A stretch of DNA of 64,000 nt from an uncultured Alphaproteobacteria bacterium (GTDB lineage: Bacteria > Pseudomonadota > Alphaproteobacteria > Methylaequorales > Methylaequoraceae). The stretch spans positions 1-64,000 of the forward strand of contig CACEWP010000002.1 of the NCBI GenBank assembly GCA_902563305.1, in the 5' to 3' direction. The notes under the pieces are model-generated. The model was not told the origin of the DNA, did not search any database, and saw only the letters and a program-made list of their open reading frames with translations. Made by a program: the position numbers and the translations under genes. This document shows, one piece after another, positions 9,395-46,122 of this stretch. Every line of letters begins with the position of its first letter. The first letter of the stretch is position 1.

Positions 9395-9796
9395 TTGAAA
9401 AAAAAATATCGTAATAAAAAAGCTATTTCTGAGATAAATGTTACACCATTTGTGGACGTAATGCTTGTTTTGTTAATTATTTTTATGGTAACAGCCCCAT
9501 TGTTGACATCTGGTATAAAAATAAATTTACCTGAAAGTTCATCGATTCTTAAAAACGAAAAGAAAGACCCTGTCACTGTTTCATTAAATTCAAATGGTGA
9601 AATTTTTATTCAAAAGAAAAAATTTTCAAAAGAACAACTTATAATTAAACTTACATTATTAAAAGAGAACAATAAAAATCTAAAAATATATATAAAAGGT
9701 GATAAAAAATTAAATTATGGAAAAGTAATGGAATTAATGAACTTGATAAATAAATCTGGCTTCAAAAAAGTAGCACTTGTGACTAAACTAAAATAG
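9395..9796 (+). CDS. tolR: TolR
   Basis: ISEINVTPFVDVMLVLLIIFMVTAPLL; TTG start. Confidence 0.95.
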   Translation: MKKKYRNKKAISEINVTPFVDVMLVLLIIFMVTAPLLTSGIKINLPESSSILKNEKKDPVTVSLNSNGEIFIQKKKFSKEQLIIKLTLLKENNKNLKIYIKGDKKLNYGKVMELMNLINKSGFKKVALVTKLK

Positions 9797-30201: not shown

Positions 30202-31014
30202 GTGAAGAAATTAACTTGTGAACAGCTATCGGAGAAAGTATTTAAAAAAAAGATTTTTAGAGGTGAAGTTTTTGTAATCAAAAATTCAAAAGAGATTGCT
30301 AAAATTACTCAAATCATTCAAATGTATTTCCTTTATATTTTTAATGTAAATATAAAAAATAGTGGAAAAAAGCAATTATTATTAAAAGATCAGAACAACT
30401 TGTTTTTTACAATTTTACAGAACAGAGTTAAGAGATGTAAATCGATAAGAAAATACTTTACTAAATTTTTAGAAAATATAGGTTTCAATGTTCAAGAAAC
30501 TTATATGGATCTCATAACATTAAGATTCAGTCCCAGTAACGGAGAAGATTCTCTTGGTACTTTAAATCCTGTAAAAGCACACAGAGACACTTGGGCCTCA
30601 AACTTGTTTCACCAAATAAACTTTTGGTTTCCGATTCATAAAGTTACAGACAAAAACTCTATTTTTCTTATCCCAAAATATTTTAATAAAAAAATAAGTA
30701 ATAATAGTGGTATTTGGAATTATGCTTTTTATAAGCAAAAAAAAAACTATCCTTCAACTCCAATCACTAACGAAAATTTTTATAAAAACGAAATCCTAAG
30801 ATTTTCATTAATTAAAGGAGAAGTGTTATGTTTTTCAGGTCATCATTTACATGGAAGTAACTTAGGAAATTGTGAAAGATTTAATCTGGAGACAAGGGTT
30901 GTATGTAAAAATGACAATAAAAAATATAAGATTCCTAAGAATTTAGATTCAGAAAATAAAATTGAGAAAAAGAAATGGTTTAAAAATTTAGTTTCTGGAA
31001 AAAGTTATACTTAA
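30202..31014 (+). CDS. Putative Fe(II)/2-oxoglutarate-dependent (phytanoyl-CoA-type) dioxygenase
   Basis: AHRDTW (HxD) ... GHHLHGSNLGNCERFNLETR (distal H and R); GTG start. Confidence 0.55.
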   Translation: MKKLTCEQLSEKVFKKKIFRGEVFVIKNSKEIAKITQIIQMYFLYIFNVNIKNSGKKQLLLKDQNNLFFTILQNRVKRCKSIRKYFTKFLENIGFNVQETYMDLITLRFSPSNGEDSLGTLNPVKAHRDTWASNLFHQINFWFPIHKVTDKNSIFLIPKYFNKKISNNSGIWNYAFYKQKKNYPSTPITNENFYKNEILRFSLIKGEVLCFSGHHLHGSNLGNCERFNLETRVVCKNDNKKYKIPKNLDSENKIEKKKWFKNLVSGKSYT

Positions 31015-31892
31015 TTATTCTTTGTAAAATTTATTAATACAATGTGTGAAATAGTAAGAGATGATAGTCCAATCACTACATAACTCAATGCTAAAGTATT
31101 AACAGAATCATAAAAGAAAAAGAAAATCAAAGTAAAAAATAGCAGAGTCAGTAATGTCATTGGGATAGTTTTTAAAATTAATTTAGATGCTTTTAATTGT
31201 AAATTATTTTTTTCTTCAATTAGATGACGGGTAGAATGAAGAAAACAGAAATATATAAAAAAAGAAAATAGTGGTTCAAAAAACCAGAAACAGAAAAATA
31301 ATAAGAATATTTCTATTGCTAAAATTCTTTGTTCTTGTGATTTAGTAATCGAATTCAGATTTTTTACGAACCACACGATTATAAGCAGGACTACAAGAAA
31401 ATAAATGTAATTAAAGTAAAGACTAACACTAGATAAAAAATTAGTTTCAACAAAAAAAAATGAAAAAATTTCAATTGATCTTTCTAAATGAAACTTAAAA
31501 GGTAGAGTTATAACTATCATTCCTCGTATAAAAATTTCCATTAAATTTTTTTTTGTTATGCTGTCACTAATTCCGAAATGTAAAGCTGACAAAAATAAAA
31601 ATAATAGAAAAACAAAATTAGGAAAATTTATCCACATAATAAAGAAAATTAATGGAATGGTTATATACGCTATCAAAAAGAATATTGTTTCTAATTTATT
31701 TTTTATAATTCTTTTATGTTTAGCGATTGAAATATCCAAACTACCATGGGCTAAACCAGGCCAAAGAAGCGGTAAAGAAAAAAGTAAGATTTGATTTAAA
31801 TAGTGCCCAGTAAGATCATTTTCGTAAAACTTAATGATTGGAATCATTATAACAATTGTATAAAAAAATAACTTTGTCTCTAGTTGCTTCAT
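31011..31892 (-). CDS. blh: Brp/Blh-family beta-carotene 15,15'-dioxygenase
   Basis: Multi-TM, WPGLAHGSLDISIAKH, LHFGISD, FLHSTRHLIEE; next to crtY. Confidence 0.9.
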   Translation of the reverse strand: MKQLETKLFFYTIVIMIPIIKFYENDLTGHYLNQILLFSLPLLWPGLAHGSLDISIAKHKRIIKNKLETIFFLIAYITIPLIFFIMWINFPNFVFLLFLFLSALHFGISDSITKKNLMEIFIRGMIVITLPFKFHLERSIEIFSFFFVETNFLSSVSLYFNYIYFLVVLLIIVWFVKNLNSITKSQEQRILAIEIFLLFFCFWFFEPLFSFFIYFCFLHSTRHLIEEKNNLQLKASKLILKTIPMTLLTLLFFTLIFFFFYDSVNTLALSYVVIGLSSLTISHIVLINFTKNN

Positions 31893-33005
31893 TTATTTCT
31901 CAAGTACTGCTTTAATAAGTAAAAACTTTGGAAGTGTTATTATAATTCTTAATATCTCAAGAAGATTAGCTGAGTTTGTTAAAAATCGAACTATTGAATA
32001 CAAATTATTGTACTTGAAAAACTTTTCAAAAAATAATTTTAAACCGCGTGGATTTTTTAAAGCAAATTTACAAAAAGTATTATCTAAAAAATCATAGACC
32101 ATTCTTTTTTTAATTTGGGGCTTTTTTCCCTCAATTATACAATCAACAAGTTGTCTCGAGAAAGTGAAAGAGTTTTGTAAAGAATAACCTGTAGACTGTT
32201 TTACCCAATTACCTGCAGTACCAATTTTAATATAATTATTAGTATTTTCTTCTTGAAACTTAAACATTGGAATAATTCCAGTCTCCAAGTTCATAATTTT
32301 ATATTTTTTACCAAAGTAGTTCTTTGATATATATTCTTCTAAATCTTTTTTGTAGTCTGGTAATGTTAGCACTTTATCGGAAAAATATGTTGTTTCAATT
32401 AAGACTTTTTTCTTACTATAAGGCAGTATATAAATAAAGTTAAAATCTTTCTTGTTATCTTGAAGATCCATAAGTATAACCTCATCTTCATTTATTGCTT
32501 CATCCTCAAAAACAATCTCCGCCCCATAGAAATGCTGAATTAGTTTTTTTGATTTATGTATGTCTTTATCTATTCTGCTATCAAATAATAAAGAGGATTT
32601 GTATTTTATTTTCTTGGTGCCTACAGTAATTGAATCATTGTCTTTTTTTAAATAATTTATATTTTGACCCATTAATAGTTTAAAATTTTGATGTTTATTT
32701 AATCTTTCTAAAAAAAATTTGAATACATCTTGAGACTTTATTCTCATATATTTAATTCTATCAGAGTAGAGTGTGGTTTTTTTTTCATTTATAATCACAC
32801 AAATTTTTTCCCATTTATTTTCGGCATATTTCGTTAAAATATTTTGGGGTATGTTCCAAAAACATAAATTTTTGTAGAGATTTATTTTTTTTCTTTTTTC
32901 TAGTATTAAAACTCTTTTGTTCGTTCTCTCTATTATTTCATAGGCAAGAATAAGGCCAGAAACACCGGCGCCTATTATAATTATATCGAAATTATTTTCA
33001 GTCAC
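31893..33005 (-). CDS. crtY: Lycopene beta-cyclase
   Basis: N-terminal IIIGAGVSGLILAYEI FAD site; crt cluster context. Confidence 0.88.
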   Translation of the reverse strand: MTENNFDIIIIGAGVSGLILAYEIIERTNKRVLILEKRKKINLYKNLCFWNIPQNILTKYAENKWEKICVIINEKKTTLYSDRIKYMRIKSQDVFKFFLERLNKHQNFKLLMGQNINYLKKDNDSITVGTKKIKYKSSLLFDSRIDKDIHKSKKLIQHFYGAEIVFEDEAINEDEVILMDLQDNKKDFNFIYILPYSKKKVLIETTYFSDKVLTLPDYKKDLEEYISKNYFGKKYKIMNLETGIIPMFKFQEENTNNYIKIGTAGNWVKQSTGYSLQNSFTFSRQLVDCIIEGKKPQIKKRMVYDFLDNTFCKFALKNPRGLKLFFEKFFKYNNLYSIVRFLTNSANLLEILRIIITLPKFLLIKAVLEK

Positions 33006-33009
33006 ACTG

Positions 33010-33912
33010 TTATGAATAAAGATTTTTAAGACTATTATTTAATTTTTTTTCTAAATCATTATTATAATATCTTCTTTTATCAAAGATTAATTTAAAAAAA
33101 ACTTTAATTGTTTTGATCACTTTTTCTAATTTTGAAAGATAGATTCTTTGGCTCCAGATATTATAGTTATTTTCTCTAATTTTTTTTCCTATAGATTGAT
33201 ATAAATATGAAGCAATTGCAATTGGAATCCTATACCTTACTGGTAATTTCATTACTCCTTCCCATGCCAAACAATAGATCTGATCAGAAATATCTAAAAG
33301 TAATTTTAAATCTTTTTTAAATTTAATTTGAAGTTCATTATCATTAAGAAGTTTACTAAAATGACAATTTACGCTATTTCTAATTTCTTCTGGAAAGTAA
33401 ATTCTTCCACTTTCCAGGTCTTCTTTTATATCTCTAGCTATATTAGTAAGTTGCATAGCTATACCTAAATAAATACCTTTATTTGTTAAAGACTCTTCTT
33501 TGACCTCCATAATCTTACACATCATTAACCCCACAGTTCCAGCAACCTTATAACTATAATTAAAAAGTTGATCATAATCTTTAATATTAACTTTATTCAA
33601 ATCACATAAAACACCATTTATTAAGTCTATTGCTATTAGTGGACTTATATTATATTTAGACATTAATCTAATAAAACTTTTAACTATTTGATCATTTGAT
33701 TTATTTTTCTTTAATTCTTTTTTAATACCCTCTAATTTAAATTTAGATTTTTTTTTGGTGAAATAATTATTATCTGCTATATCATCTACCAATCTACAAA
33801 ATAAATATAGTTTTCTTATGTCGACTTGTTTTTCTTTAGAAAAGAATAGAGAAGCAAAATAAAAAGTCTTGGCTCTTTTTTTTAATGATAGATTACTTTG
33901 CCTGTCATTCAT
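33010..33912 (-). CDS. crtB: Phytoene synthase
   Basis: LYLFCRLVDDIAD, LTNIARDIKED. Confidence 0.93.
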   Translation of the reverse strand: MNDRQSNLSLKKRAKTFYFASLFFSKEKQVDIRKLYLFCRLVDDIADNNYFTKKKSKFKLEGIKKELKKNKSNDQIVKSFIRLMSKYNISPLIAIDLINGVLCDLNKVNIKDYDQLFNYSYKVAGTVGLMMCKIMEVKEESLTNKGIYLGIAMQLTNIARDIKEDLESGRIYFPEEIRNSVNCHFSKLLNDNELQIKFKKDLKLLLDISDQIYCLAWEGVMKLPVRYRIPIAIASYLYQSIGKKIRENNYNIWSQRIYLSKLEKVIKTIKVFFKLIFDKRRYYNNDLEKKLNNSLKNLYS

Positions 33913-35377
33913 TCTTGAGAATATTTTCTAATACCTTGGCAGAACTCATAACACCAGGAACTCCGGCACCTGGATGACATCCTGCTCCAACAAAATAAAG
34001 ATTTTTAAAGTTTTCTGATTTATTGTGGAATCTAAACCAAGCTGACTGTCTGAATATTGGAGAAATTGAAAAACCAGTCCCATACAACGAATTATAATCT
34101 TTTTTAAAATCAGATGGTGACATATGAAAACAGGTAATTAAATTCTTACGAAGTTCAGGAAGAATTGATTTTTCAAGAGCAATAAGAATTTTTTCTTGAT
34201 AAATCTTACCATAATTTTTCCAGTCGATATTATTTTTAAGATTTGGTACAGGTGATAAAACATAAAAACAATCGCAATTCTTTGGGGCCATTGCTTTGTC
34301 TGTTGCTGTTGGTCTATGAAGGTATAAACTAAAATCTTCTGCCAGGATTTGTTTATTAAAAATATCTTTTAATAAACCTTCGTATCTCTTTCCCATCCAT
34401 ATGGTATGATGAGCAATTTTTGAATACTTTTTTTTGGTACCAAAGTAGATTACAAATAGTCCCATTGAAAAATCCATCTTTTCAATCTTTTTCTTATTCC
34501 ATTTCTTGTTTAGCTTAGTATTAATTAAATATTTATATGTAAATGCAGGGTCTGTATTTAAAATAATTTTGTCTGCGGATATTTTTCTTTTTTTAACTTT
34601 GATTCCAACTGCTACATTTTTATCAAAAACAATATTTGTTACCTCTGAATTTTTAAATATTTTAATATTCTCTTCTTTCATTAATTTTTCAAACCCTTTA
34701 ATTATTTTACCTGTTCCACCCATTGCATAATGAACTCCCCATTTTCTTTCCAAAAAGTGAATAAGATTATAAATTGATGTTGTTTCAATAGGGTTTCCTC
34801 CGAGAAGTAAAGGTTGAATACTGAAAGCTTGTCTAATTTGTTCATTCTTTATAAATTTTGATACTAGCTGAAAAACGCTTAAATAACTCTTTAATGTTAT
34901 CAATGTTGGTATCTGCTTAAGCATAAAAAAGAAGTCATGAAATGGAACAAAAGATAGTTTGTTGAAGCCAATATTAAAAATTTTTTCAGAAAAGTTCAAA
35001 AGACGTCGATAACCAATAACATCTTTATTGTTAAATTTAGATATTTCTTTTTCTGTTTTTTTTAAACAACTTGAGTAATCAAAAGTTTTTTTGTTAGATG
35101 AAAAATAAAATCTGTACCATGGTTCTACTTCAACAAATTTTACATATTTTGATCTATCTTTTCCAAAAAGTTGAAATAGTTCATTAAATAGGAAAGGCGC
35201 TGTAATGACTGTTGGTCCAGCATCGAAAGTGAAACCTGACTTTTTAAAAACTCTTGCTCTTCCACCTAGCTGATCAAGTTTCTCATAAATTGAAACTTCG
35301 TATCCCATTGCTTTCAATCTTAGTGCAGCTGAAATACCACCAAAACCCGAACCTACAACGACTGCAGTTTTTTTCAT
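33905..35377 (-). CDS. crtI: Phytoene desaturase
   Basis: VVGSGFGGISAALRLKAMGYEV; GGRARVFKKSGFTFDAGPTVITAP; C-terminal VGAGCHPGAGVPGVMSSAK. Confidence 0.96.
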   Translation of the reverse strand: MKKTAVVVGSGFGGISAALRLKAMGYEVSIYEKLDQLGGRARVFKKSGFTFDAGPTVITAPFLFNELFQLFGKDRSKYVKFVEVEPWYRFYFSSNKKTFDYSSCLKKTEKEISKFNNKDVIGYRRLLNFSEKIFNIGFNKLSFVPFHDFFFMLKQIPTLITLKSYLSVFQLVSKFIKNEQIRQAFSIQPLLLGGNPIETTSIYNLIHFLERKWGVHYAMGGTGKIIKGFEKLMKEENIKIFKNSEVTNIVFDKNVAVGIKVKKRKISADKIILNTDPAFTYKYLINTKLNKKWNKKKIEKMDFSMGLFVIYFGTKKKYSKIAHHTIWMGKRYEGLLKDIFNKQILAEDFSLYLHRPTATDKAMAPKNCDCFYVLSPVPNLKNNIDWKNYGKIYQEKILIALEKSILPELRKNLITCFHMSPSDFKKDYNSLYGTGFSISPIFRQSAWFRFHNKSENFKNLYFVGAGCHPGAGVPGVMSSAKVLENILKNE

Positions 35378-36468
35378 CTATATTTTTTTATATTTTTGGT
35401 GAGTCTTGTTATTATTGAACTTATTACGAAACTGACTATTTTGGATAATCCTTCATCAGTTTTATTTGAAATATCAATGGCTTTTTGTGACACCTCATTT
35501 AAATGGCGAAATGACATATCAAGCGCACCATTTTTTTTAATTTTTTCTAACCAGAAACTGATTTCGTCTTCAGAAATTGAATCATATCTTTTTTTAAGAA
35601 ACCTTTGCAGGATGAATTTTTCTCCGTTAGTTGCATTTTCTATAAAATGCATTATCAAAATATTCATTTTTCCTTCTTTGAGATCTCTGCCTGGTAAGCC
35701 CCTATCTTTTAATCCAAGAAAATCAGATAAATCATCTTGTATCTGATAAGCGATTCCAGTTTCATATAGAGGGGAAAAATAATTATCTTCAAAATTTATT
35801 CCTGACAGTATTAGTGCTAATTTAATAGGTAAACATATTAGCCCACCAGTTTTTGCTTTTGATGTAGACTCATAATCGTGCATTTTTAAATTAAAATCTG
35901 ATCTACTTAATATTTCGACTGATTGTCCTTTAACAGTTTGTTTTATCGTATTACTTAATTCTCTGATTGCTTTGCACTTAAGACTAGAGTCTACGTCAGC
36001 ATTCGCAAGAATTTCAAATGAAGCGGAAATGAAAAAGTCTCCTAGGTTTATAGCTGTATGGTCTCCAAATCTATTCCATATTGTAGGAAGTCCTCTTCTT
36101 AAGATATCTCTGTCTTGGAGGTCATCATGTATTAATGATGCATTATGAATAAATTCACAACACATTGCTATATTAAATGAAACTTTCTTCTCCAATCCAA
36201 ATAATTTAGAAGATAAAAGAGCAAGGATAGCTCTAAACCTCTTTCCACCTGATTTTAACTGATATTTTGCACAATGCCCCATCCATGTATCATCACACAA
36301 AATTTCTGACATATTTTTATCCAACTTTTTTAGATCATTTTTGTAAAACGAGTGATCTAAAAAACTTAAATCTATATTTTTTTGAAAATCATCCAGGCTT
36401 AACCAGTTTTTATTACTGTATAAAAACTGCAGATCTTTTTCAATTTTTTGTGTTTGCAATTTTTCCAT
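35374..36468 (-). CDS. crtE: Geranylgeranyl diphosphate synthase (start at 36468 or 36492 ambiguous)
   Basis: DDLQD and DDLSD Asp-rich motifs; GGKRFRAILALL. Confidence 0.92.
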   Translation of the reverse strand: MEKLQTQKIEKDLQFLYSNKNWLSLDDFQKNIDLSFLDHSFYKNDLKKLDKNMSEILCDDTWMGHCAKYQLKSGGKRFRAILALLSSKLFGLEKKVSFNIAMCCEFIHNASLIHDDLQDRDILRRGLPTIWNRFGDHTAINLGDFFISASFEILANADVDSSLKCKAIRELSNTIKQTVKGQSVEILSRSDFNLKMHDYESTSKAKTGGLICLPIKLALILSGINFEDNYFSPLYETGIAYQIQDDLSDFLGLKDRGLPGRDLKEGKMNILIMHFIENATNGEKFILQRFLKKRYDSISEDEISFWLEKIKKNGALDMSFRHLNEVSQKAIDISNKTDEGLSKIVSFVISSIITRLTKNIKKYR

Positions 36469-36472
36469 GATC

Positions 36473-36506
36473 AAAAAAAAGGGAAACATCAATTTTGATG
36501 TTTCCC
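36473..36506 (-). terminator. Intrinsic terminator between proteorhodopsin and crtE
   Basis: Minus strand GGGAAACATCA-AAAT-TGATGTTTCCC followed by T8; perfect stem. Confidence 0.9.
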
Positions 36507-36528
36507 TTATAAATTAATTACATAATTT

Positions 36529-37224
36529 TTAGGCTTTTGCAGAATCTGCTTTAGCAGCAGCCCAAATAATTACACCAAACGCAATCTTGTTGATGTAATC
36601 AGCGAGGTTATATACCCAGTTAAGTGTTTCAGGATCTGCTCCACCACCTAAGTAACCTAGGAAATATCCAATTGGGTAAATTGACCAACCAATTGACACA
36701 ATCCATTTTAATGCATTAAAAGCAGATTTCATTCCTTCAGAATTACTTGATGCACTTGCTTGAGCAGCCTCACCAGCAAATACCTCATAAAGAATGTAAA
36801 TCCACCCGGCCATTCCTACTATGAAACCGACTGTTGCGTTAATGTAGCCAGCCTCTCCCATGAAACCACCGACTAGCATTATGATTGTTCCTATTAATAA
36901 TCTCCAAAAAATTCCGGCAGTAGCAGCACCCACCGCAGCGAGAATTAGATAGAACTCAATCATTTGAAGAGGAACTGTTAATAACCAATCAATATACCTG
37001 TATACTGTTGGAGATTCACCTGTAGAGACCCAAACGTCTCTCATGTAATAGTAATGAACAGCTGCTATAAGAGTTACTAGTCCAGCTACTCTTACTGAAG
37101 TTGCCCATTGTTTAGAAACGCTATTGGCTTCAAGGAAGAAGAATGCTGTAGATGCAACCATTGAAACTGAAATTATCCAGAAGGTAACACCAACAAAATC
37201 TTCGGGTTTTAGCATATAATCCAT
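36529..37224 (-). CDS. Proteorhodopsin, DTE-type proton pump, Gln at tuning position 105 (blue-type)
   Basis: RYIDWLLTVPLQMIEFYLIL (D97/T101/Q105/E108 equivalents), AAVHYYYMRD (H75), DYINKIAFG (Schiff-base Lys). Confidence 0.97.
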   Translation of the reverse strand: MDYMLKPEDFVGVTFWIISVSMVASTAFFFLEANSVSKQWATSVRVAGLVTLIAAVHYYYMRDVWVSTGESPTVYRYIDWLLTVPLQMIEFYLILAAVGAATAGIFWRLLIGTIIMLVGGFMGEAGYINATVGFIVGMAGWIYILYEVFAGEAAQASASSNSEGMKSAFNALKWIVSIGWSIYPIGYFLGYLGGGADPETLNWVYNLADYINKIAFGVIIWAAAKADSAKA

Positions 37225-39993: not shown

Positions 39994-41316
39994 CTACCAG
40001 AAGAAGAACGCTCCAACTCCACCAAAGGAATCTTCTTGTTCATCGTCTGCGAGGTACCATGATTTTTCAGCATAACCACCTTCAGCTACTAATCTAAAGT
40101 TATCAGTAACGTTGTGCCAAATCATACCAGAATGCATGATATTGCCATTAGGTGTACCAGTAGTATTCATATCACTACCGGTTTTCTTCATGAAGTTACC
40201 ACCGTAAGAATAACCTACTGAAGTACCTTGACCAAAATCAAAAGTACCCTGGATGTATCCACCGTAAGTTTTTCTTTCTTTACCAACATCATCAAGTGCT
40301 CCAACAGAAGTTGATGCAGCAGCACCTGTACCGCCAGTAGCGTGTTGACCTCTCATACCCATTGCAGTTCCATAAAAACCTGTAGCAACAAGTGAGAAAC
40401 CTTCATAAGTAAGTTTTGTACCAAAACCTACACCAGCAGAGTCTACATCAGTGTCATCATCAGTGTCAAATGTTGTTCCACTTGCGGAAGAGCTGTTTTT
40501 GAAAGCCTCGCCCTGAGCCGTAGTTCTCTCTGTATTTTGATAAGAACCATCAACCCATAAATTTACGCCCAGACCAGTTTGGAAGAAGTCTCCATTCCAA
40601 GTGATTTGCGCTTCAACTCTAGGAGATGACATGTCTGTAGCAGAGAAAGCATCAGTATCTGCACGAATTTCATCTGGATCAAATATAGCAACTTTTGCAT
40701 TAAATCCAGCACCTAAATCAGGTAAAGTCCATGATACTTGCGGTTTGAAGTCAGTGTAAAGATAACCAACACCAATTCTACCGAGTGTAGTGTTTGAGTT
40801 ATTAGCTGTTGCAGCCGCACCAACACCAAATAAAAGCATATCATTAAGGATAGCGTTACTTTGGTGAATACCAAGACTACGTCCAACTAAAACAGACCCG
40901 AAGAAACCAGCTATTGAACCACTTGTTTCACGAATGTTTATTTGACCGTTCCCTAAAGAGTTTTCGTCACCGTTCATATGAGTGTATAAGCCAAGTCTTG
41001 CAGACATGTCTAATCCATTAGCCGTTGGAGCTTTTAAAGTCATACCCCATACGTTTGGTAAAAGACCAGTCACAATACTTACGTCATCATTACCTCCCAT
41101 AATACCTGCGGTAGTATCGAAAGCAACAGTTGCTCCACCAGAAGTAGTTGGTGCATCTGATACACTGTTTTTCATAACGAATGCGTTAGCCGCGCCGTCA
41201 AATGAAACTTCCCAACCTTCTTGACTCATCAACAAAATTTTTGAATCAACTGAAGTGGAAGCTAAAGCCATGACAGCTGGAATAGCAGCTACAGCAATTT
41301 TTTTAGAAATTTTCAT
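39994..41316 (-). CDS. Porin
   Basis: Signal peptide, Gly-rich 440-aa beta-barrel pattern, C-terminal FFFW, strong RBS GGAAGGA. Confidence 0.85.
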   Translation of the reverse strand: MKISKKIAVAAIPAVMALASTSVDSKILLMSQEGWEVSFDGAANAFVMKNSVSDAPTTSGGATVAFDTTAGIMGGNDDVSIVTGLLPNVWGMTLKAPTANGLDMSARLGLYTHMNGDENSLGNGQINIRETSGSIAGFFGSVLVGRSLGIHQSNAILNDMLLFGVGAAATANNSNTTLGRIGVGYLYTDFKPQVSWTLPDLGAGFNAKVAIFDPDEIRADTDAFSATDMSSPRVEAQITWNGDFFQTGLGVNLWVDGSYQNTERTTAQGEAFKNSSSASGTTFDTDDDTDVDSAGVGFGTKLTYEGFSLVATGFYGTAMGMRGQHATGGTGAAASTSVGALDDVGKERKTYGGYIQGTFDFGQGTSVGYSYGGNFMKKTGSDMNTTGTPNGNIMHSGMIWHNVTDNFRLVAEGGYAEKSWYLADDEQEDSFGGVGAFFFW

Positions 41317-41449
41317 ATATTTCCTTCCTTAGTTTGTTAATATATTCAATTTTAATCATTTCATCTTACATTTTAAATTTTTTTGTAAAACTTATTACTA
41401 CAATTCACTGCATTTTTATCATAAATTGTTGTTTTTTTACAACAGTTTG

Positions 41450-42187
41450 CTATTTTAGTATATAATTAACTGGTATTCTTATTTTTAGGTACCCTTTAGA
41501 GTTCAATATTTCACTAGGCGGTTTTGGAAAATTGAACTTTTTTAAAATTTTCATTGTTGAATTATAAAGTCGTTTTGGTGCTTTATTTTTAATTTCAATA
41601 TCTATTAGCCTACCGTCTTTATCAATAATTAAAATCGAAGTAATTGTTCCTTGTTCTCTTCTTTTAATTGATTGAATGGGGTATGACTTTGATGCCATTT
41701 TATTAATTTCTAAAGATACAAAACTCAAATATTCACTAAGAATTTTATCAACTTTGACATTAACATTTTTTTTGAGAGACTGATTTGGTATTGAGGGTTT
41801 AATTACTTTTGATGGTTTTGGTGCGTTTTTAGATATTTTTTTTTTAACTAAATTATCAGTTTCTTTGATTGGTTGTTTTGGAATAATTTCTTTATTTTTT
41901 GGTTTAACTAAATCTTTTTTTTCGATTTTTTTGTTTAAAGATAGAGTATCCTTTTTTTTTAAAATTTTTTTTGGTACTTCTTTTTTTGGTATTTCTTTTT
42001 TATGAGATTGTTTGACAGGTTTTGGTTTTGTTACTTCAGGAGATGCGATACTAAAATCCCTAAATTCGCTTAAATTTACAACATAAACTTCACTATCTTT
42101 CTTTTCTGTATTTAAGAAATAAATTACAGATAAGTGCATGGTTGCAGAGAAAATAATTGAATAAATTAGAAATCTTATATTAGTCAT
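41450..42187 (-). CDS. TonB-family energy transducer
   Basis: N-terminal TM, Lys/Pro-rich linker, TonB C-terminal domain-like end. Confidence 0.8.
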   Translation of the reverse strand: MTNIRFLIYSIIFSATMHLSVIYFLNTEKKDSEVYVVNLSEFRDFSIASPEVTKPKPVKQSHKKEIPKKEVPKKILKKKDTLSLNKKIEKKDLVKPKNKEIIPKQPIKETDNLVKKKISKNAPKPSKVIKPSIPNQSLKKNVNVKVDKILSEYLSFVSLEINKMASKSYPIQSIKRREQGTITSILIIDKDGRLIDIEIKNKAPKRLYNSTMKILKKFNFPKPPSEILNSKGYLKIRIPVNYILK

Positions 42188-42584
42188 CTTTTTCAGAAAC
42201 TTTGATAAATACTTTTTTTATCCCATTTGATTTCATCTCCTGCATCAAATTATTGAATACGTGAATTGAGGCTTTTTTATCAACATCTAGAATATGTTTA
42301 CTTTCAGTCGATGTTAAAAGTTCTGGTATTTCCTTGAGATCAACTATTTTATTATCATAAAAAATCTGGTTTTTTTCGTTAATTGTAAAAACTAAATCTT
42401 CTCTTAAATTTTTTATTTCTGCCCCGTGCTCAGATTCAGGTCTTTCAATATCAATTAAATCTTTTTTACTTACAACTCCAGTCAACAGAAAAAAAATAAG
42501 TAATAAAAAGATTAAATTTATCATTGGTATCAAATTTACCATTTCGATTGAATCTTTTTGTTTATGGAATTTTTTTAGGTTCAT
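42180..42584 (-). CDS. ExbD/TolR-family protein with Asp-to-Asn change in the TM segment
   Basis: VNLIPMINLIFLLLIFFLLTG. Confidence 0.82.
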   Translation of the reverse strand: MNLKKFHKQKDSIEMVNLIPMINLIFLLLIFFLLTGVVSKKDLIDIERPESEHGAEIKNLREDLVFTINEKNQIFYDNKIVDLKEIPELLTSTESKHILDVDKKASIHVFNNLMQEMKSNGIKKVFIKVSEKDD

Positions 42585-42972
42585 TTGAAAAATTGACTTC
42601 TTTGATTTTATGTATCTTAATTACATCTAAAATTTCTATAAGAGTTTGAAAAGACGTATTCTTGTCATTTAATATTGCAATTTTTTTAAAACCAATGGAT
42701 TCCCATTTCTTTAAATAATCGTTTTCCAAAGTCTTTAGCTCAATGACTTTTTCATTTAAAAATATTTTTTCATTTCTTAAATATAAAATCATCAATTTAT
42801 CTTTATTTTGATTGTTTGAAATTTGTTTATTATTATTTACGGAGAAACTTATTTCGTTGTTTTTATTAAAATTTGTTGCAAGCATAAAAAAAACTAACAT
42901 TAGAAATATAATATCAATTAAAGGTATAATATTAATCTTTTGAATATTCTTTTTTTTTTGAACTTTTAACAT
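42562..42972 (-). CDS. ExbD/TolR-family protein (canonical Asp)
   Basis: INIIPLIDIIFLMLVFFMLA. Confidence 0.87.
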   Translation of the reverse strand: MLKVQKKKNIQKINIIPLIDIIFLMLVFFMLATNFNKNNEISFSVNNNKQISNNQNKDKLMILYLRNEKIFLNEKVIELKTLENDYLKKWESIGFKKIAILNDKNTSFQTLIEILDVIKIHKIKEVNFSNEPKKIP

Positions 42973-43592
42973 TACCTTTTTAATTTAGATAACCTCTGAA
43001 TAATGATTTCAAAGTTTTCAGATAAAGAACTAACTTTTTTATCAAGAAAATAATGAGAGATTAGGGCAGGTATGGCAACAATCAAACCCATAGCAGTTGT
43101 TAGTAAAGCAGTCCATATACCTCCAGCAAGTATGGATGGATCAACTAGACTTCCTCCAAGCTCAAGTTCATTGAAAGAATCAATCATTCCAATTACAGTT
43201 CCCAGCAATCCAATAAGTGGGCTGACTTGTGATATTATTTCTAAGGAAGGCAAAAAGGAATTTGCCTTTTTAAATTCTTTGCTAATTAGAATATTAATTT
43301 CTTGCTCGATAAGGTTTTCTGTTTGATGAGAATCAATTAGATCAACAATATTTTCTATGAGTAATTTCTTCGAACTACTCATCTTTTTAAGTCCATTTTG
43401 TTTGACATCGATTAACTTGTATTGTGTTGTAATAGAATCTAAGAAAGTTGAGAGCCTTGAAAAATCAAATTTTTTTATAATAAATATTTCAAAATATTTT
43501 AAAATTACAATTGCTATTGTTATAATTGACAACAAAAATAACAATGTGAATATTATTCCTCCTTTATCCATAAAATTTAAAAAAGTTTCCAT
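42972..43592 (-). CDS. ExbB/TolQ-family proton channel
   Basis: SPLIGLLGTVIGMIDSFNEL; GLIVAIPALISHYF. Confidence 0.9.
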   Translation of the reverse strand: METFLNFMDKGGIIFTLLFLLSIITIAIVILKYFEIFIIKKFDFSRLSTFLDSITTQYKLIDVKQNGLKKMSSSKKLLIENIVDLIDSHQTENLIEQEINILISKEFKKANSFLPSLEIISQVSPLIGLLGTVIGMIDSFNELELGGSLVDPSILAGGIWTALLTTAMGLIVAIPALISHYFLDKKVSSLSENFEIIIQRLSKLKR

Positions 43593-43605
43593 AAAATTTC
43601 TTAAA

Positions 43606-44391
43606 TTATATTAAACCTTCTAAAAGTGACGGGAACTTTTTTTTGAGATGGGAATATTCATTTTGTATAATTTTATCATCGATACTTAATTTATTTCTCT
43701 TTGATTTGACTTTATGATCGTAAACTACTGAAGCGGGTCTTTTTGAAAAGAAAAGAATTCTTTCACCCAATAGTATTGCTTCTTTAAGGTTATGAGTAAT
43801 AAGTATTATGGTTATGGGGTTTTTTTTCCAATAATTTATAAGTACTGAGTATAAACTTTCTGCGGTAGGTTGATCCAAGGAGACAAAAGGTTCGTCCATT
43901 AGTAAAACTTTGGGGTTTCTTACCAATGCCCTTGCAAGTGAAACTTTTCTTCTCATTCCACCTGAGATAGATTTTGGGAAATAATCTTTAAATTCTTGAA
44001 GATTAAAATCTGAAAGAAGTTTATTTATTCTCTCTTTTGATTTGACATCTTCATCACAAACTAATTCAATGTTTTCTTCAACTGTAAGCCAAGGTAGAAG
44101 CCTTGATGTTTGGAAGACATACCCGAAGTTCTCATTGATCTCTAATTCTTTTTTGTCAAAGGTCAATTTTTGATTTTCTGCTTCAATTAATCCACCAATA
44201 ATATTCATAAGTGTAGTTTTTCCGCACCCTGAAGGACCTACTATACAAACAAATTCATTAGAATTTATTTTTATATTAATATTTTTAAGAACTTCTACAG
44301 TTGAACTATCATGCTTATTAGAGAAAGATTTATTTTTTATATTAATTTCAAAATCCAAAACTTTACCTCCACATTGATATTTTTTTTTCAA
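43606..44391 (-). CDS. ABC transporter ATP-binding protein (start uncertain; possibly TTG at 44358)
   Basis: Walker A GPSGCGKTTLM, SISGGMRRKVSLARAL, LLMDEPF. Confidence 0.93.
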   Translation of the reverse strand: MKKKYQCGGKVLDFEINIKNKSFSNKHDSSTVEVLKNINIKINSNEFVCIVGPSGCGKTTLMNIIGGLIEAENQKLTFDKKELEINENFGYVFQTSRLLPWLTVEENIELVCDEDVKSKERINKLLSDFNLQEFKDYFPKSISGGMRRKVSLARALVRNPKVLLMDEPFVSLDQPTAESLYSVLINYWKKNPITIILITHNLKEAILLGERILFFSKRPASVVYDHKVKSKRNKLSIDDKIIQNEYSHLKKKFPSLLEGLI

Positions 44392-45112
44392 AGGGTCTAA
44401 CTAAAATAAATTCTACAAAAATAATTAGAACAACAAAAACTAAAGTGTATGCTAAAATACCTGAAATATCAAAAAATTGAAAGAATCCAAATAATTTAAA
44501 CCCTACACCATTACTTCTACCTAGGAGTTCAACTACTAAAACAATTTTCCAGATTAAAGATAATCCTGATCTTGCTGATGACAACAAATATGGAAAAAGT
44601 TGCGGAAGTATAACCTTGAAGAAAAATTTATTACCAGAGATTTTGTAGAATTTAGCAACATCAATATAGTCTTTCTCTATTGATCTGGCTCCCTCTCTCA
44701 TTATAACTGCAACCATAGGTATCTTATTAAGAGATACCGCTAAAATTGCAGCAATTTCATTGAGTCCAAACCACACGTAGCATAAAATTATTATTACCAG
44801 TGCTGGAACATTTAATCCTAATATCAACCAATCATCTAAAAAAGTATTTAATTTTTGATTTCTGCCCATGTAAATTCCTACAAACGTTCCGATAAACATT
44901 GCGATTAAAAACGATAAAAAAACTCTTTTTAAGGTTACAGCAGTATGATAATAAATTTCGTAATCTTCTGATTCAGAAATAATTTTAGAATAAACCTCTT
45001 TAGGTCCAGGTAAAAGATCTATATCTAAGTAAAGGCTTGATAATTGCCAAATTCCAAAAAAAATTATGATCGATGCAACCCTAATAATTGCGTTTGGACT
45101 GCTCTTTTCCAT
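44363..45112 (-). CDS. ABC transporter permease (nitrate/sulfonate/taurine type)
   Basis: BPD-type TM fold; EGARSIEKDYIDVAKFY loop. Confidence 0.9.
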   Translation of the reverse strand: MEKSSPNAIIRVASIIIFFGIWQLSSLYLDIDLLPGPKEVYSKIISESEDYEIYYHTAVTLKRVFLSFLIAMFIGTFVGIYMGRNQKLNTFLDDWLILGLNVPALVIIILCYVWFGLNEIAAILAVSLNKIPMVAVIMREGARSIEKDYIDVAKFYKISGNKFFFKVILPQLFPYLLSSARSGLSLIWKIVLVVELLGRSNGVGFKLFGFFQFFDISGILAYTLVFVVLIIFVEFILVRPFEKKISMWR

Positions 45113-45114
45113 TT

Positions 45115-46122
45115 TTACCTAGTCCAAAAAGTTCCAGGTGAGAGTGATTTAGCCTTACCAACGAGTTCTTTGCCTCCAACATCGGATAAAATTGAATAAA
45201 GCTTTTTTGAACCGTTGATTTGTTCAGTTGAAAATTCACCCTCAGGTATTCCTTCTCTATATATATCTCTAAGTTTTAAAAAAAGTTTATCATTTTTGGC
45301 ATTCATGTGAGGTCTAACTTTTTCCCAGACATCGTCAGAGGTTAACATTAATTTTTTTGCTTGATCAGATGTTGATAAAAAATCATTTAAAAGAGATTTC
45401 TGTTTAATTGCCCATTCCTCTTTAAAAACCCAACCTATAACTGGAATACCTGTTGGAAGGTCTAGTTTTTTTAAAATATCAGTAATATTAATTACTTTGG
45501 TGAATTTTTTGTTTGTTAGGAGTTTAGCTTGATATGGCCAATATGTTAGGATTGCATCAAAACTGTTTTGTTCAATTTTTTTATTCAGGAGAGGAGGGGC
45601 TCCAAAAATCTGTCTGCTCACATCTTTTAATTCTTTACCGTATTCTTTCTTATAATATGCTCTGAATATCAGCCATCCTTTATCAACTTGACCGCCAGCA
45701 ATACCTATTTTTTTTCCTTCAAGGTCTCCTTCATCTTCTATTTTTGAGTCTATCGATGCTATCAGACCGCCTGCAGACATGGAATGAGGAACAAATGCAA
45801 ATTCTCTTCCTTCACTTCTTTGTCTAGAAACCCAGAACCAATCTGTTACTATTAAATCAACTGCACCACCTTGCAGAGCAACAGCGGCAGCATTTTTACT
45901 TGCAAGTTCCACGATTTCAATATTGAAACCATTTTTTTTATCGAGCTCAAGATCTTTAATTAGTTTAAGTTCCCAGTTAACGCTTCCATATTGAAGTGAA
46001 CCAATTTTAATATTTTTAGCTTCTAAGAATGAATGGAAAACAAAAAATAAGCTAAAATATAAAAATAAATAAAATTTTTTAATTTTTTTATTAGAGTTAT
46101 TGCACATAATTTTAATTATCAT
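45115..46122 (-). CDS. ABC transporter substrate-binding protein (NMT1/SsuA-like)
   Basis: Signal peptide; KIGSLQYGSVNWEL; AALQGGAVDLIVTDWFWVSRQR. Confidence 0.88.
   Translation of the reverse strand: MIIKIMCNNSNKKIKKFYLFLYFSLFFVFHSFLEAKNIKIGSLQYGSVNWELKLIKDLELDKKNGFNIEIVELASKNAAAVALQGGAVDLIVTDWFWVSRQRSEGREFAFVPHSMSAGGLIASIDSKIEDEGDLEGKKIGIAGGQVDKGWLIFRAYYKKEYGKELKDVSRQIFGAPPLLNKKIEQNSFDAILTYWPYQAKLLTNKKFTKVINITDILKKLDLPTGIPVIGWVFKEEWAIKQKSLLNDFLSTSDQAKKLMLTSDDVWEKVRPHMNAKNDKLFLKLRDIYREGIPEGEFSTEQINGSKKLYSILSDVGGKELVGKAKSLSPGTFWTR

Follow-up and report, generated by a model that had tools for sequence, protein, structure and literature searches.

Tandem ExbD genes, the second with Asn at the transmembrane Asp position, may form a one-sided Ton motor in many marine bacteria

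The window analysed here is a 64,000-nucleotide stretch of DNA from an uncultured alphaproteobacterium of the family Methylaequoraceae, the genome of which amounts to 1.34 Mb in 39 contigs and is 77.9% complete; its close GTDB relatives are uncultured marine Alphaproteobacteria, represented mostly by single-cell genomes, plus a HIMB59/MED-G10 type. On the minus strand lies an operon (Table 1) that runs from a substrate-binding protein through a permease, an ATPase, ExbB, ExbD copy 1, ExbD copy 2 and TonB to a porin-like protein. Adjacent motor genes share between 1 and 23 bases: 23 in the case of the two ExbD copies and a single base between copy 1 and ExbB. This combination of motor operon, SsuA/NMT1-like ABC importer and porin-like protein (39994-46122) keeps its order in relatives of several genera. 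The porin-like protein, for which no Pfam or NCBIfam match was found, aligns over 16 rows with a mean column identity of 66%, and its structural model is strand-rich and of low confidence (pLDDT 63). No riboswitch that would point to the substrate of the ABC transporter was found in the window. Further along, at 30202-37224, the window holds what we judged by eye to be a proteorhodopsin-like gene with a carotenoid-synthesis gene cluster.

Table 1. Genes and sites of the motor operon, with positions counted along the window
Feature	Position	Strand	Basis and remarks
Porin-like outer-membrane protein	39994..41316	minus	Directly after TonB in the family; gene order
TonB	41450..42187	minus	Pfam TonB_C, 37.3 bits; 8-base overlap with ExbD copy 2
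ExbD copy 2 (N-type)	42180..42584	minus	134 aa; transmembrane Asp replaced by Asn23; Pfam ExbD, 65.3 bits
Asn codon AAT at the essential transmembrane Asp position	42516..42518	minus	Direct reading; codon 23 of copy 2
ExbD copy 1 (D-type)	42562..42972	minus	136 aa; transmembrane Asp retained; Pfam ExbD, 75.8 bits
ExbB	42972..43592	minus	Pfam MotA_ExbB, 96.8 bits
ABC transporter ATPase, same operon	43606..44391	minus	Pfam ABC_tran; gene order kept in relatives
ABC transporter permease (BPD_transp_1)	44363..45112	minus	Pfam; gene order in relatives
NMT1/SsuA-like periplasmic substrate-binding protein	45115..46122	minus	Pfam NMT1; NCBIfam SsuA_fam far under cut-off

Copy 1 (INIIPLIDIIFLMLVFFML) and copy 2 (VNLIPMINLIFLLLIFFLL) are both intact reading frames, and both exceed the Pfam ExbD/TolR (PF02472) cut-off of 25.4 bits; against the NCBIfam ExbD_1, ExbD_2 and tolR equivalogs, the scores of both copies all fall far under the curated cut-offs. 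The transmembrane motif reads PLIDIIF in copy 1 and PMINLIF in copy 2. The initial annotation had seen here tandem ExbD paralogs, the second with its membrane Asp exchanged for Asn, and the reading frames, the Pfam matches, the codon and the alignment all bear this out. Aligned to a profile of copy-2 relatives, the Asn falls on D25 of E. coli ExbD (6tyi) and, with the same profile, on the corresponding Asp of Serratia ExbD (7ajq). A nearby Asp that another alignment might bring into register was looked for; copy 2 is free of Asp and Glu between E14 and D42, so that no alternative alignment supplies one. Copy 1 thus has the transmembrane Asp of a proton-carrying ExbD (D25 in E. coli) and copy 2 lacks it, while the window's TolR (9395-9796) retains its Asp (INVTPFVDVMLVLL), as had been annotated. 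In the AlphaFold2 model of the N copy, which has a mean pLDDT of 80.9, a transmembrane helix spans residues 19-37 and the periplasmic domain adopts the alpha/beta fold of ExbD; the closest structure is 8vgd_B, an ExbD bound to the TonB D-box peptide (TM 0.84 by target length, rmsd 1.3).

A D copy followed by an N copy is found in every genome of the family from which both copies were recovered. Whether orthologs conserve the pair had been set out as the decisive check, and relatives with two Asp copies would have counted against it. Across 74 tandem loci, collected by family and class profile and protein searches that did not require Asn and that fetched some places twice, the first copy carries Asp in all 74 and the second carries Asn in 72, Ser in one and Asp in one; the pair is old, and conserved across the family and in distant genera. 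Being shared so broadly, it is explained neither by a sequencing error nor by a recent mutation. The D copy stands directly upstream of the N (or Ser) copy in 194 of 196 cases, the remaining two lying at contig ends, and the order from D to N is without exception among the 194 for which upstream sequence exists.

The distribution is wide. A genome-wide scan with the copy-2 profile, which demanded Asn and therefore does not bear on Asn conservation, gave at least 444 confirmed relatives; the 80 loci kept among the matches listed come from Alphaproteobacteria (Thalassospira, Kordiimonas, Parvibaculum, Roseobacteraceae and others), Gammaproteobacteria (Ectothiorhodospira, Alcanivorax, Marinobacter, Paraglaciecola, Teredinibacter and others) and Nitrospinota. 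Within the class, a manual count put the genomes with an N copy at 47 or more out of 289. Among 398 genomes sampled from the phylum, the Asn DNA pattern occurs in 29, in 26 of which it belongs to an ExbD, and the reversed pattern in none. Many of the genomes sampled are fragmentary MAGs or single-cell genomes. Three matches to the Asn pattern (L229, L230, L236) were set aside as members of families other than ExbD, and a locus that had looked like a natural D-N fusion (L147) was rejected, since its normal D C-terminus runs on in another frame, as after a frameshift. In the open-access literature searched, we found no Asp/Asn ExbD pair described; tandem exbD genes as such are already known.

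Duplicate loci inflate the raw counts, and the comparisons that follow use 159 N and 158 D rows that are non-identical. Loss of the essential Asp is the sole point in favour of regarding the N copy as a decaying duplicate with no role. Against such decay, Asn is present in 158 of the 159 N-lineage rows and the frames are intact over an ancient divergence, and relatives write the Asn as both AAT and AAC, with at least nine synonymous changes on the tree; we accordingly hold decay to be extremely improbable. A single G/A transition in the Asn codon would bring back Asp.

Two members of the N lineage depart from the rule: one (L177, in genome G124) has apparently reverted and carries Asp in copy 1 and copy 2 alike, and the other (L172, in G305) has Ser in place of Asn. 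Asn is thus not strictly required. A separate tandem type, in which each copy has Asp, is distinguished by the motif PMLDVVFIM and forms its own clade in the tree; it was met at L044:6475-9247, L175, L180, L181, L183, L188 and L195, the first of these loci having two ExbB-like genes.

The tree was computed without the Asp/Asn column and has 126 columns only, so that its deep forks are weak. The N copies outside Nitrospinota, together with the Ser copy and the reverted Asp copy, fall on one side of a branch with a support of 96.6, and forcing every N copy into one clade gives a tree that the AU test does not reject (p-AU 0.867) and that has a better likelihood than the free search. Within a locus D and N share 26% identity, and their distances correlate (0.66), as in co-inherited genes. 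Their divergence is complementary. The proline at the end of the NIBS, the periplasmic dimer strand of ExbD (PMC10771500), is present in 145 of 159 N rows and 67 of 155 D rows, and the Thr before the transmembrane proline (E. coli T21) in 2 of 159 N and 114 of 158 D rows, all non-redundant. The N copy, then, has the dimer-strand proline and lacks both D25 and the Thr, and the D copy has D25, usually the Thr, and is often without the proline. From these sequences, the N copy would seem to have retained the dimer and TonB face with loss of polar channel residues, and the D copy to have retained the proton residue.

This complementarity bears on the arrangement of the two subunits. Both copies have the full ExbD fold and a transmembrane helix, and self-dimerisation is possible in principle; one could therefore envisage two kinds of homodimer, an ExbB5-ExbD(D)2 motor beside a non-conducting ExbB5-ExbD(N)2 complex that keeps TonB in store or in position, or that caps how many motors are active. 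The frequent absence of the NIBS proline from D, and of the Thr and Asp from N, is what one would expect if the two covered for each other, and the strict D-then-N order with overlapping genes suggests equal dosage; on these grounds, separate homodimers appear unlikely.

No part of the N copy is as well conserved as its transmembrane helix, in which P20, N23, F26, L27, L29 and F32 are invariant in 37 sequences. A helix so conserved is hard to explain if it is not seated in ExbB, and this makes it improbable that the N copy works outside the pore, whether as an accessory or as a third ExbD in a larger ring, to load TonB or to anchor the motor to peptidoglycan. Such a placement does draw some support from a 6:3 assembly of hexameric ExbB with three ExbD, which has been reported (cited in the review PMC9389320), and from Xanthomonas, where the tandem exbD2 is dispensable for iron uptake. 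In Xanthomonas campestris and Flavobacterium psychrophilum, exbD1 and exbD2 stand in tandem in the ton cluster, and exbD2 is reported to be unneeded there for iron uptake (PMC3551730); the likeness to the loci described here is one of tandem gene arrangement. The strongest couplings between the two proteins lie in the transmembrane helices (D25-N33, z 7.0); on supported branches they have only one independent contrast behind them, and so they may reflect phylogeny.

ExbB varies at the position occupied by Glu in the TolQ proteins examined, which we take, from a motif alignment by eye, to be E176 of E. coli. In the window, its motif AGGIWTALLTTAMGL places a Thr at the site of the TolQ Glu (APGIAEALFATALGL), and the D/N loci have Glu in 83 cases, Thr in 25, Val in 18, Gln in 13, Leu in 7 and other residues in 7. 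The variability would suit a motor in which the proton path does not depend on the ExbD Asp alone and the asymmetry is tied to an altered ExbB channel, so that the pair could couple in another way, through a different ion or acidic residue. Glu is nevertheless retained in over half of the D/N loci and the D copy always has Asp, and we regard such a channel as very unlikely to be the explanation.

The conserved module is ExbB-ExbD(D)-ExbD(N)-TonB, with TonB next after the pair, and so encodes together the three components by which a Ton system is recognised. Often near it are a TonB-dependent receptor or an importer for iron, haem or B12, as well as siderophore-type ABC transporters; in Phaeobacter inhibens a plasmid-borne B12-type cluster with an adenosylcobinamide amidohydrolase lies close by. 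The receptor barrel family PF00593 was matched in 31 of 32 genomes of the family, with one to four TonB-dependent receptors each, and four times in the genome of the window; a TonB system without receptors was thereby ruled out, the receptors being encoded elsewhere in the genome. The ExbD-family genes found in the window's family are TolR and the D/N pair only. With completeness ranging from 54 to 96%, this absence of another ExbD is not proof; all five family genomes that are at least 90% complete are without one. Among the other MotA-like genes examined in the window's genome, no second ExbB-ExbD was seen, their neighbours resembling, by eye, vWA or MotB-type partners. A MotA/TolQ-like gene on another contig (L241:1689-2992, G000:C5) adjoins a candidate vWA partner with a transmembrane helix, again judged by eye (compare PMC12204202). 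On a further contig of the same genome (L240:2916-5734, G000:C11), a second TonB follows directly after a TonB-dependent receptor, with neither an ExbB nor an ExbD to go with it, and presumably relies on the D/N motor. Gene content and neighbourhood support the view that the D/N locus serves as a Ton motor.

Such a motor would share with the Ton systems of E. coli and Serratia its ExbB, the ExbD fold, TonB, the Asp of the D copy and nearby TonB-dependent receptors, and a 5:2 architecture is to be expected. It differs from them in that ExbD is encoded twice, with Asn replacing D25 and T21 absent in one of the copies, and in an ExbB in which the Glu position is often altered. A further parallel is the hmu haem cluster of Ruegeria sp. 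TM1040, for which passages of the published account list exbB, exbD1, exbD1a and tonB, report that the genome's only TonB-dependent receptor is required for haem uptake, and call exbD1a a duplicate with no mention of an Asn (PMC5225302). Related Roseobacteraceae loci are D/N, and by analogy with these relatives the TM1040 pair would probably be D/N as well. The likeness to AglRQS of Myxococcus is one of gene content, with one TolQ-like and two ExbD/TolR-like proteins per motor cluster; AglRQS, unlike a Ton motor, powers gliding (PMC3169522). In the MotAB flagellar stator, a 5:2 motor, Asn at the ion site serves as a laboratory mimic of protonation (PMC9389320). Those D-to-N changes are laboratory mutants of a homodimer, whereas here Asn is naturally fixed in one subunit only.

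The pair itself, its conservation, the gene order and the complementary divergence are observed features of these loci. Taken together, the obligate pairing, the fixed order, the overlapping genes, the status of the pair as sole motor in the family and the complementary divergence favour a D/N heterodimer, and from these sequence features we put the probability of an obligate ExbB5:ExbD(D)1:ExbD(N)1 Ton motor with a single proton site, the best explanation at hand, at roughly 0.6. The initial annotation had proposed just such an obligate heterodimer with one proton-carrying subunit; of that proposal, the pair has proved real, old and conserved, while one D and one N in the same pore, and the stepping that would follow, are what we infer rather than what has been demonstrated.

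In the heterodimer so conceived, five ExbB would surround a two-helix axle of one ExbD(D) and one ExbD(N), working with the adjacent TonB. Asn, which is uncharged and near in shape to a protonated Asp, would make the N subunit a permanently neutral partner, leaving the Asp of copy 1 alone to carry protons; through its dimer strand, the N subunit would supply the other half of the periplasmic dimer, and it would help to hold TonB. The axle could then be charged on one side and neutral on the other, or neutral on both, and never doubly charged. Were it to rotate, it would do so with both sites neutral, with a rotor period of 72 degrees and five, not ten, proton events in each turn; were that forbidden, it would rock back and forth without a full turn. 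That this is a widespread natural motor, in which an obligate D/N axle with its second subunit fixed neutral breaks the ten-fold periodicity in one of these two ways, is a tentative proposal to which we give slightly less than even odds.

The rotary models proposed for ExbBD, TolQR and MotAB take the two proton sites to be equivalent. While one Asp of a 5:2 motor is engaged, the other waits. In the turnstile model each site is charged or neutral, and in another model rotation needs both to be protonated (PMC9389320). The same review holds a ten-fold rotational symmetry to be almost certainly universal and treats the occurrence of doubly protonated or doubly charged states in the cycle as unsettled (PMC9389320). 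With one site permanently neutral, a doubly charged state is impossible. Rotation of the D/N motor would speak for the models that let the axle turn with both sites in the neutral state; a motor unable to rotate would have to draw its force from rocking. This natural experiment spans hundreds of species, culturable marine bacteria among them, and in many marine bacteria nutrient uptake may be powered by a rotary motor that the pair makes one-sided by nature.
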